A DNA stretch of 64,000 bases from Gallionella sp. (GTDB lineage: Bacteria > Pseudomonadota > Gammaproteobacteria > Burkholderiales > Gallionellaceae), in the NCBI GenBank assembly GCA_030682375.1, contig JAUXOL010000016.1:330577-394576 (forward strand), given 5' to 3'. The notes under the pieces were generated by a model. That model saw only the letters and a list, made by a program, of their open reading frames with translations, was not told the origin of the DNA and searched no databases. This document shows, in pieces, positions 8,137-12,468 of the stretch; position 1 is the stretch's first letter; each line of letters starts with the position of its first letter. The translations under genes were made by a program, and so were the position numbers.

Positions 8137-8192
8137 CGGTAACAAATCCGTAACCTTCCGTTAACCCGACTGAAATATTTCATCGCTATCCT
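8137..8192 (+). promoter_or_regulatory. PhoB-box-like array and -10 before the EAL-GGDEF operon
   Basis: Four units spaced 11 bp apart: CGGTAAC, CCGTAAC, CGTTAAC, CTGAAAT. The first two form CGGTAACAAATCCGTAAC (8137-8154), matching the E. coli Pho box CTGTCATAAATCTGTCAT at 12 of 18 positions by my count. A TATCCT -10 candidate lies at 8187-8192, about 10 bp after the last unit, as at PhoB-activated promoters where the box replaces the -35. Confidence 0.6.
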
Positions 8193-8224
8193 GCGGCGCA
8201 ATTCCATCCAAGGGACTTGCCGCC

Positions 8225-10072: not shown

Positions 10073-11671
10073 ATGTCGCTACAAGCACAACTCCGACTGA
10101 TCGCCACGATCACGGCCCTGAGCCTGCTGGCAGTCATCCTGTTCAGCGTCGTCCAGCTGGGCATGCTGCGCAGCGAGTTCTCGCAATACCAGGCCAGGCA
10201 GACTTTCGCCGGCAATCTGGCCCAGATCAAGAGCATCTCGCTGGCGGTATCCCGCTCCGATCCCATCCTGGCGGAGACCGAGACCGCTCTCGCCGCCGCG
10301 AACGAAAGCATCCATGCGCTGCATCAGGGCGCGACCGCGGCAGTTCCCGCGGAGATCGACGGCGAACAGCTGAAACAGCTCGTCGCGGCATGGGACGAGT
10401 ACGCCAAGGGATTCGACGGCGCGATCAAGATCGCCACCACCAGCCCGGAAGATGCACTGCAGATACCGGACGCGCTCTATCAGATGCATCTGGAACCGAT
10501 GATCGCGAGCATCGACCAGCTGGTCGCTCTCAACCGGGATGGGGAGACGCAGGCCAGGGAGAACATCGGCCGCGCCGTCGGCAATATCCTGTGGATCATC
10601 GTATTGCCGCTGATCGCCGCGGCAATGATCGTGATCGCCTTCCAGGCCGTCTTCAACAGCAGACTGAAGAAGCGCATCGACGGCATCGTGGACATCATCG
10701 CGCACTTGAGCGCGGGAGACCTGAGCCATCGCCTGCCGGAAGGCCCGTCGGACGAGATCGGCCTGATGGTGAGAACCATCAATGGGTTCATCACCCGGAT
10801 CGAGTCCGTGCTGCACGATGTCAACGTCTCCGCCGATAGCTCCAAGCTCACGGCCAACAAGGTCAATGCGATGACGCAGAGCGTCAGCAGTAACGCACAG
10901 ACACAGTCGGAAAAAATCTTCGGCGTGATGTCCGCCATCGAGAAGATGGGCCACACCATCACCGAGATCGCGGGCAACGCGATCCATGCCGCGAACACCG
11001 CCAAGACCACCGGCACGAAAATTAACGAGGTGAGCATCGCCGGACAAAAGACATCGTCGCTGCTGCAGCACCTGGACACCACCGTGGAATCCTCGGCGCA
11101 GACGATGAAGCAATTCGACGCCACGCTGCAGCGTATCGGCAGCATCAGCGAGATCATCAAGGACATCGCCGAACAGACCAACCTGCTGGCGCTGAACGCG
11201 GCCATCGAGGCAGCCCGCGCGGGCGAGCATGGCCGCGGCTTCGCCGTCGTGGCAGACGAGGTGCGCCTGCTGTCCGAACGCACCACCACATCGGCCAAGG
11301 ATATTTCCGGCCTGCTGAACGAAGTCCAGAAATCGTCGCGCGAGGCGATCTCTTCCATGGATGCGACTCGCAGCAGCGTACGCACCGGGGTGGAGCATGG
11401 CGAAAAAATTGCCGCGATACTCGCCGAAGCAGAGGCTTCGATACAGAACGTGGCGGAAATGATGCAGCAGATCGCCCTCGCCACCGAGACGCAATCCCGT
11501 GAAGGCCGATTGATCTCCGGACATATCGCGGACGTGACCGATATCACCACGTCGACGACCAATGAGATCGAGACGACCCGGCACGAGATGGCCGGTCTGG
11601 CCCATGCTTCCGAGATTCTGCAGCAGATGGTTTCGCAGTTCCGTCTATCGACCGCGAGGAACATGGCATGA
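10073..11671 (+). CDS. Methyl-accepting chemotaxis protein
   Basis: 532 residues with transmembrane segments at about 8-28 and 175-197 flanking a helical periplasmic domain of about 145 residues, probably four-helix-bundle type. A HAMP domain follows (about 198-250, SRLKKRIDGIVDII) and then the signalling domain with its hairpin tip EQTNLLALNAAIEAARAGE. The ligand is unknown. It starts 24 bp after the EAL-GGDEF gene, and its stop overlaps the ATG of the acyltransferase (ATGA), so the three are probably one transcript behind the Pho-type promoter at 8137-8192. That suggests a receptor used in phosphate shortage. Confidence 0.93.
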   Translation: MSLQAQLRLIATITALSLLAVILFSVVQLGMLRSEFSQYQARQTFAGNLAQIKSISLAVSRSDPILAETETALAAANESIHALHQGATAAVPAEIDGEQLKQLVAAWDEYAKGFDGAIKIATTSPEDALQIPDALYQMHLEPMIASIDQLVALNRDGETQARENIGRAVGNILWIIVLPLIAAAMIVIAFQAVFNSRLKKRIDGIVDIIAHLSAGDLSHRLPEGPSDEIGLMVRTINGFITRIESVLHDVNVSADSSKLTANKVNAMTQSVSSNAQTQSEKIFGVMSAIEKMGHTITEIAGNAIHAANTAKTTGTKINEVSIAGQKTSSLLQHLDTTVESSAQTMKQFDATLQRIGSISEIIKDIAEQTNLLALNAAIEAARAGEHGRGFAVVADEVRLLSERTTTSAKDISGLLNEVQKSSREAISSMDATRSSVRTGVEHGEKIAAILAEAEASIQNVAEMMQQIALATETQSREGRLISGHIADVTDITTSTTNEIETTRHEMAGLAHASEILQQMVSQFRLSTARNMA

Positions 11672-12468
11672 GCGGGCGGGCGCTGTTCCGGGGCGCCCGC
11701 CTCGCCCTGCATCTTGCCTGCGGAATGCTGCTGGCGATCCCCTATCCCCATCTGACGCAAAGAAGGCAACGCCGCCTGTTGAAATTCTGGAGCAGGCGAC
11801 TGCTGTCCATACTCAACGTCGGCATCAGGGTCGAAGGCACGCAACCCGCGCGCGGCGAAAACGCCTGCCTGATCGTAGCCAACCATATCTCCTGGCTGGA
11901 CATCTTCGTGCTGAATGCGATCCAGCCGACGCGCTTCATCGCCAAATCGGAAGTGCGCGACTGGCCGCTGATCGGCTGGCTATGCCGACGCACCGGCACG
12001 ATCTTCATCGAACGCGCGATACGCCATGACGCTGCCGCGGTCAACCGTCGCGTCGCCGCGCTGTTGGAACAGGGCATCTGCGTCTCGCTGTTTCCTGAGG
12101 GCACTTCCACGGACGGCCGTCAGGTCGGGCACTTCCACTCCGCGCTGATCCAGCCGGCAATCGACGCCCATGTCCGCCTTTGCCCTATCGCCTTGCGCTA
12201 TCTGGACGGGGACGGCAATCTCAGCGACGCCCCCGCCTATATCGGCGAAATGACACTGTTCGGTTCGATATGGCGCATCCTGCGCAGCCCGCGTTTCGAC
12301 GCCTTGCTGGTATTCACCCCTGCGCTGGCGACTGCCGTAGAGAACCGCCGGGTACTGGCGCGCACCGCGCAGGAGGCCATCGCGCAGGTACTCGAGAGCG
12401 CAGCAATGCCGCTACCGCAATCGGCCAGCAATACGCAGATGCTGCCGACGGCAGCGACCCCGTCCTAG
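11668..12468 (+). CDS. Lysophospholipid/ornithine-lipid O-acyltransferase (PlsC/OlsA family)
   Basis: A 266-residue member of the 1-acylglycerol-3-phosphate acyltransferase superfamily with both motifs: NHISWLDIF (NHx4D, about residues 72-80) and FPEGTSTDG (about 143-151). A hydrophobic N-terminal segment (ALHLACGMLLAIPY) anchors it to the inner membrane. The ATG overlaps the chemoreceptor stop codon, implying translational coupling. An OlsB-like N-acyltransferase gene lies 120 bp downstream, so OlsA activity (acylating lyso-ornithine lipid) is the best guess. A phosphatidic-acid-forming PlsC cannot be excluded. Confidence 0.85.
   Translation: MSGRALFRGARLALHLACGMLLAIPYPHLTQRRQRRLLKFWSRRLLSILNVGIRVEGTQPARGENACLIVANHISWLDIFVLNAIQPTRFIAKSEVRDWPLIGWLCRRTGTIFIERAIRHDAAAVNRRVAALLEQGICVSLFPEGTSTDGRQVGHFHSALIQPAIDAHVRLCPIALRYLDGDGNLSDAPAYIGEMTLFGSIWRILRSPRFDALLVFTPALATAVENRRVLARTAQEAIAQVLESAAMPLPQSASNTQMLPTAATPS

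Follow-up and report, generated by a model that had tools for sequence, protein, structure and literature searches.

It is known that phosphate-starved bacteria lower cyclic di-GMP (c-di-GMP), as with RapA, and, separately, swap phospholipids for ornithine lipids, and a Pseudomonas aeruginosa protein of EAL-CBS-GGDEF architecture is described as a homolog of the Pho-induced RapA. Here we analyzed a 64,000 nucleotide stretch of a Gallionella sp. genome (assembly GCA_030682375.1, contig JAUXOL010000016.1, positions 330,577 to 394,576 of the forward strand; hereafter the window), in which a tandem PhoB-type promoter stands before genes for an EAL-CBS-GGDEF protein, a chemoreceptor and an OlsA-like acyltransferase. 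Our reading, to which we give a probability of roughly 0.7, is that low phosphate leads, by predicted PhoB binding, to one likely transcript for a RapA-type enzyme, the chemoreceptor and a likely OlsA; it draws on the boxes, their likeness to those of phoU and pstS, conservation, gene order, gene overlaps and intact EAL residues, all read from the sequence. The parts of this putative operon are:

8138..8181, + strand: four PhoB-type half-sites in 11-bp tandem steps (four-site plus -10 score; kept in relatives)
8187..8192, + strand: -10 element TATCCT, 5 bp past the last half-site, a spacing as in the pstS and phoU promoters
8225..10048, + strand: EAL-CBS-GGDEF protein of RapA/PA3258 type, likely a c-di-GMP phosphodiesterase (Pfam domains, homology, EAL residues)
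10073..11671, + strand: chemoreceptor (methyl-accepting chemotaxis protein) with a predicted four-helix periplasmic domain, an optional member (Pfam, structure model)
11668..12468, + strand: OlsA-like lyso-ornithine-lipid acyltransferase, PF01553 (Pfam; the best NCBIfam models are OlsA, matched below their cut-offs)

The half-sites, GGTAACAAATC (8138), CGTAACCTTCC (8149), GTTAACCCGAC (8160) and TGAAATATTTC (8171), form tandem 11-bp direct repeats that occupy the place of the -35 element ahead of the -10, and 15 identical bases, CGGTAACAAATCCGT, are common to this box (from 8137) and the box of phoU (from 37226). A scan with the sigma-70 consensus found no promoter, as expected where the -35 is replaced by half-sites. 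The EAL gene is followed after 24 bp by the chemoreceptor gene, which overlaps the OlsA-like gene by ATGA; no intrinsic terminator candidate lies inside the operon, two on the + strand being placed at 13600 and 14840 (candidates on both strands numbered eight against a shuffle mean of 5.9, which is near chance). A first-pass annotation made from the letters alone had described four half-sites spaced by 11 bp with a -10 element, which we find at 8138-8192, and the order, spacing and overlap of the three genes, which open reading frames and domains confirm; this array and gene layout are real and go beyond chance.

To score the box we used a 34-column matrix fitted by expectation maximisation to 57 pstS and phoU upstream regions of relatives, with the Gallionella genome itself left out; the fit assigned a site to ~89% of these regions, some of which hold no box (e.g., L114-L118, where pstS stands behind another gene). 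In this two-site form (two half-sites plus -10) the matrix recovered the genome's own held-out promoters of pstS (34.0 bits), phoU (23.6 bits) and a second phoU (21.6 bits), and gave 17.1 bits to the phoB promoter, which lay outside the training. The genome scan covered 1.264 Mb (46% of the genome). With a layout of four half-sites plus -10, fixed after the finding had been seen, the EAL site scored 24.1 bits and ranked 3 of 2,521,412 positions, and in ten random sequences of 0.4 Mb with the dinucleotide composition of the window no four-site score reached 24.1. The six four-site sites above 12 bits lie ahead of the genes for a porin, an OlsB-like protein, the EAL protein, a zinc-dependent phospholipase C-like protein (36246-37166), PhoB and the second PhoU, and 11 of the 24 sites that reach the level of the EAL site with the two-site matrix fall in the window, which makes up 5% of the scanned sequence. 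The genome encodes both PhoB (TIGR02154, 353 bits against a cut-off of 296) and PhoR (TIGR02966, 444 against 334).

The EAL protein has matches at E-values of 1e-60 or less in 103 of 150 Gallionellaceae genomes, and from these we took 40 family loci (the 20 nearest plus a hand-picked spread, with which our set of named loci overlaps); an order set of 40 loci from 18 other families (best matches downward, some skipped) and a class set of the best 20 were taken at 1e-100 or less. Start codons in relatives were assigned by script, and a common line of 8.4 bits was the 95% quantile of two-site scores across 1033 control upstream regions. In the family, this line is passed by 32 of the 40 EAL upstream regions, the four-site line by 28 and at least one of the two by 38; the scores are shifted relative to same-locus controls (Mann-Whitney p 3e-14). 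Beyond the family, the sets' own 95% lines are passed by 33/40 loci in the order, 16/20 in the class and 11/11 in Oxalobacteraceae, so that Pho control of the EAL-CBS-GGDEF protein looks old and is predicted to be widespread. The box takes a classic form in some of the other relatives (e.g., TGTAATAACGCTGTCACA in L073), and the site upstream of a Cupriavidus megaplasmid homolog is weaker (10.3 bits, rank 2 of 9534). By eye, the leaders of L046 and L048 seem to contain, ~220 bp ahead of the EAL gene, diverged repeats of a short segment ending in the same ATGCAAACT start; L046 has a four-site box 268 bp upstream of its EAL gene, while L048 has none within 330 bp.

Of the 37 family loci with enough sequence, 32 carry a gene for OlsA downstream of the EAL gene and in the same orientation; none of the 39 such loci of other families does, nor does any of 12 named loci (L229-L239 and L241). 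Among the 34 loci in which OlsA was read, 28 have it directly behind the EAL gene (spacing -8 to 166 bp), four place a chemoreceptor in between and two have it at a distance; an overlap of 8 bp between the two genes recurs in 13 loci. The two functions are even joined in one natural protein (P0067, 880 residues), a full EAL-CBS-GGDEF-acyltransferase fusion seen in a single public sequence, where an assembly error is possible. Judged by gene order, the EAL-OlsA pair is the conserved core of the predicted operon in Gallionellaceae. The chemoreceptor sits between the two in the window and in only 4/37 family loci, from two genera, and is therefore an optional member; of the conservation that the first-pass annotation had looked for in Gallionellaceae, the box and the EAL-OlsA order thus hold and the chemoreceptor does not. 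We rejected a separate Pho promoter for OlsA, as none of 34 OlsA upstream regions exceeds 8.4 bits; of six chemoreceptor regions one does (L072), on the other strand and away from the operon. Boxes over the same line precede the OlsB-like gene in 11/22 family loci and the porin gene in 11/13, and pst or phoU genes fall inside the fetched stretch in 16/40. The main text of the Gallionellaceae pangenome paper makes no mention of phosphate, ornithine or PhoB, and a literature search, with most subscription journals outside its reach and several sources available in part, found no operon joining an EAL-CBS-GGDEF enzyme to an ornithine-lipid gene. The claim of an operon without described precedent therefore survives in a narrower form: what is new is the linkage of the EAL-CBS-GGDEF gene to OlsA in Gallionellaceae, a Pho-controlled EAL-CBS-GGDEF protein being no novelty, given that the P. 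aeruginosa protein of this architecture is described as a homolog of RapA.

The EAL and GGDEF domains of the first gene product score above their Pfam cut-offs and its CBS domain slightly below (23.5 against 24 bits; 34.4 bits in the homolog P0067), in the EAL, CBS, GGDEF order of RapA and PA3258. It is the best of three matches in the genome to P. aeruginosa WP_003091594.1 (40% identity over 97%), which we take to be PA3258 from a neighboring protease gene. All EAL catalytic residues are intact in 40/40 family orthologs, pointing to a likely c-di-GMP phosphodiesterase, and a GGDDF motif in place of GGDEF is kept in the same 40/40. The structure model is confident mainly in the EAL domain (predicted template-modelling score 0.48), and the fold search barely covered the CBS and GGDEF parts; the fold alignment was made without L212 and L233 (in-frame stop) and also left out L221, L236-L238 and L241. 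The acyltransferase has the PF01553 fold with NHISWLD and FPEGT in its translation, HX4D and FPEG being the motifs expected of PF01553 enzymes; its two best NCBIfam models are both OlsA, and the genome has one other PF01553 gene, elsewhere (C13). The OlsB-like protein scores 127.5 bits against PF13444 (cut-off 22.4). For the ligand domain of the chemoreceptor, a four-helix bundle is predicted.

The 64-kb window forms a Pho island that includes phoU-pstSCAB, and neither the pst cluster nor the OlsB-like gene had been mentioned in the first-pass annotation. Its further features are:

12502..12556, + strand: second tandem Pho box with -10, before the OlsB-like gene (four-site 31.5 bits, rank 2)
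12589..13338, + strand: OlsB-like ornithine N-acyltransferase (the only PF13444 gene found in the genome)
13604..13658, + strand: third tandem Pho box with -10, before the porin gene (four-site 33.8 bits, rank 1)
13705..14814, + strand: Gram-negative porin (PF13609; Pfam)
18530..18563, + strand: Pho box (16.8 bits) at the start of a family-4 glycosyltransferase gene (18561-19778), with a PAP2 gene next (19744-20274)
23909..25789, - strand: EAL-CBS-GGDEF paralog with degenerate EAL residues (39% identity), with its own likely Pho box at 25747-25780 (12.4 bits)
37149..37203, - strand: tandem Pho box before the zinc-dependent phospholipase C-like gene (36246-37166, PF00882; four-site 21.3 bits, rank 4)
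37227..37260, + strand: Pho box before phoU (37297-38034; TIGR02135), the one sharing 15 bases with the EAL box
38098..38131, + strand: Pho box before pstS (38199-39251), head of pstSCAB (to 41985) (34.0 bits, rank 1 with the two-site matrix)

The OlsB-like and porin genes thus each have their own Pho box, separate from the EAL promoter. In the paralog, 8/9 checked EAL residues are changed and GGDDF is intact, so it may perhaps be a Pho-controlled c-di-GMP receptor or cyclase opposing the first EAL protein. Second copies also occur elsewhere, as in L067 (G086), where one ~51% identical lies ~4.7 kb behind the first, and in genomes including G145 and G149. The phospholipase C-like gene, divergent from phoU, possibly encodes a phospholipid recycling enzyme. 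The gene next after the porin is that of a prokaryotic diacylglycerol kinase, behind which lies a Pho box (15319-15352, +, 17.6 bits) followed only by an 82-residue open reading frame (15364-15612); another box (18252-18285, opposite strand) precedes a pyruvate kinase-like gene (16355-18217). The glycosyltransferase/PAP2 pair (18561-20274) is of glycolipid type, and in relatives only 3/9 family-4 glycosyltransferase genes of this kind pass 8.4 bits. A phage-type integrase gene (32354-33247) separates the lipid part of the island from its pst part.

Iron oxides, the habitat of these bacteria, bind phosphate strongly. When phosphate falls, PhoR-PhoB would switch on three neighboring tandem promoters, PhoB occupying the four repeats at 8138-8181, and we infer that one message would cover the EAL, chemoreceptor and OlsA genes. 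The RapA-type enzyme would degrade c-di-GMP, favoring surface release or motility; the chemoreceptor, where kept, would join the sensory array, and freed cells might conceivably be steered by it towards phosphate, the least supported of these steps. The OlsB-like enzyme, switched on like the porin by its own neighboring Pho promoter, would supply the substrate of OlsA, and together they would make ornithine lipid that replaces phospholipid and frees its phosphorus; recycling of phospholipid may fall to the phospholipase C-like protein, and phosphate would be taken up by the porin and Pst. One conserved promoter and overlapping genes would in this way join the lowering of c-di-GMP and the lipid swap in a single message. 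We also speculate, as a doubtful extension, that in Gallionellaceae the EAL-CBS-GGDEF protein binds OlsA as one physical unit in which c-di-GMP or a nucleotide sensed by CBS or GGDEF gates the final ornithine-lipid step; if true, a second messenger would directly control membrane phosphorus.

A number of results weigh against this phosphate-responsive operon. The two-site layout gives the EAL site 7.4 bits and a rank of only 24 among 2,523,974 positions, so that the high matrix rank looked for by the first-pass annotation is obtained with the four-site layout and not with this one; random sequence gave 17 two-site matches at 7.39 in 4 Mb, i.e., ~11 expected by chance over the scanned sequence, and a single box is therefore weak, the tandem array being what makes the site stand out. 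Two family loci, L044 and L048, have no EAL-gene box by either model, only 10/40 family loci exceed the 95% line of same-locus two-site controls (which include other Pho-island genes), and at the common 8.4-bit line the counts fall to 29/40 in the order and 10/20 in the class. The OlsA-like protein reaches 139.4 and 135.2 bits against a cut-off of 300 in the NCBIfam OlsA models, and the OlsB-like protein 179.7 against 320 and 171.6 against 350 bits in those of OlsB, and we therefore name them only OlsA-like and OlsB-like. The GGDDF motif departs from GGDEF, and the genome has no match to the LapG protease (PF06035), so output through the LapD-LapG route that RapA uses in P. fluorescens is improbable here. 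PA3258 mutants of P. aeruginosa PAO1 and PA14 reportedly showed no phenotype, and Pho genes of Herbaspirillum seropedicae, a relative from a genus that carries the EAL-gene box, were reported to be higher at high phosphate, so the sign of the phosphate response may vary.

The cut-off scores leave room for Pho control being real with OlsA acting mainly as a second phosphatidic-acid acyltransferase, the operon tuning phospholipid make-up rather than ornithine lipid. TIGR00530 (1-acylglycerol-3-phosphate acyltransferase) does match the protein just over its own cut-off (103.6 against 102.95 bits); however, the best two NCBIfam models are OlsA, the second PF01553 gene can serve as the housekeeping enzyme, and the one OlsB-like (PF13444) gene found adjoins with its own Pho box, and we consider this unlikely. 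It is rather improbable, too, that the EAL-CBS-GGDEF protein is mainly a cyclase or a c-di-GMP/GTP receptor, with phosphate shortage raising or sensing c-di-GMP. Apparent cyclase activity is reported for PA3258 with an inactivated EAL domain (PMC12900916) and suggested in PMC9394441, and GGDDF is universally kept among the family orthologs; yet so are complete EAL residues, the motif is not GGDEF, and the PA3258 expression phenotype reportedly fitted a phosphodiesterase and RapA is reported to deplete c-di-GMP.

Turning to the promoter, the genus's own EAL half-sites (TGCAAC, CTTAAC, TGAAAC) drift from the pstS type, and the genome holds 71 matches to the PhoB model, most of them across the receiver domain only, as might be expected if another OmpR-family regulator used these repeats; but the same matrix finds pstS, both phoU genes and phoB, and other relatives have the classic form noted above for L073, which makes such a regulator very improbable. 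Finally, genes of one regulon may cluster passively, without joint transcription or joint function, a view in keeping with the separate boxes of OlsB and the porin and with the nearby pst/phoU genes in 16/40 loci. Against it stand the gene overlaps, the lack of any box over the line at OlsA in all 34 regions, the one protein fusion and an order kept in 32/37 loci, and we regard it as decidedly improbable. We retain predicted PhoB-driven expression of the three genes as one unit as our preferred explanation.

Among characterized systems, PA3258 of P. aeruginosa has the same EAL-CBS-GGDEF architecture (PMC12900916); its copy differs in that an incomplete gene table lists neither an acyltransferase nor a chemoreceptor within 1.5 kb. 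CtpL of P. aeruginosa is reported to be PhoB-regulated, and the Gallionella chemoreceptor likewise stands behind a Pho promoter, while CtpH has a four-helix ligand domain (PMC4926252) as predicted for the Gallionella protein. RapA of Pseudomonas fluorescens Pf0-1 likewise has a Pho box upstream, is induced by PhoB and depletes c-di-GMP (PMC3032545); its output pathway differs in its use of LapG. Pseudomonas OlsA and OlsB belong to the same enzyme families and are also under Pho control (PMC5082522 and PMC12186492); the portions available of these accounts describe no operon shared with a c-di-GMP enzyme, whereas the Gallionella OlsA-like gene is tied to the EAL gene and its OlsB-like neighbor stands under a Pho promoter of its own.
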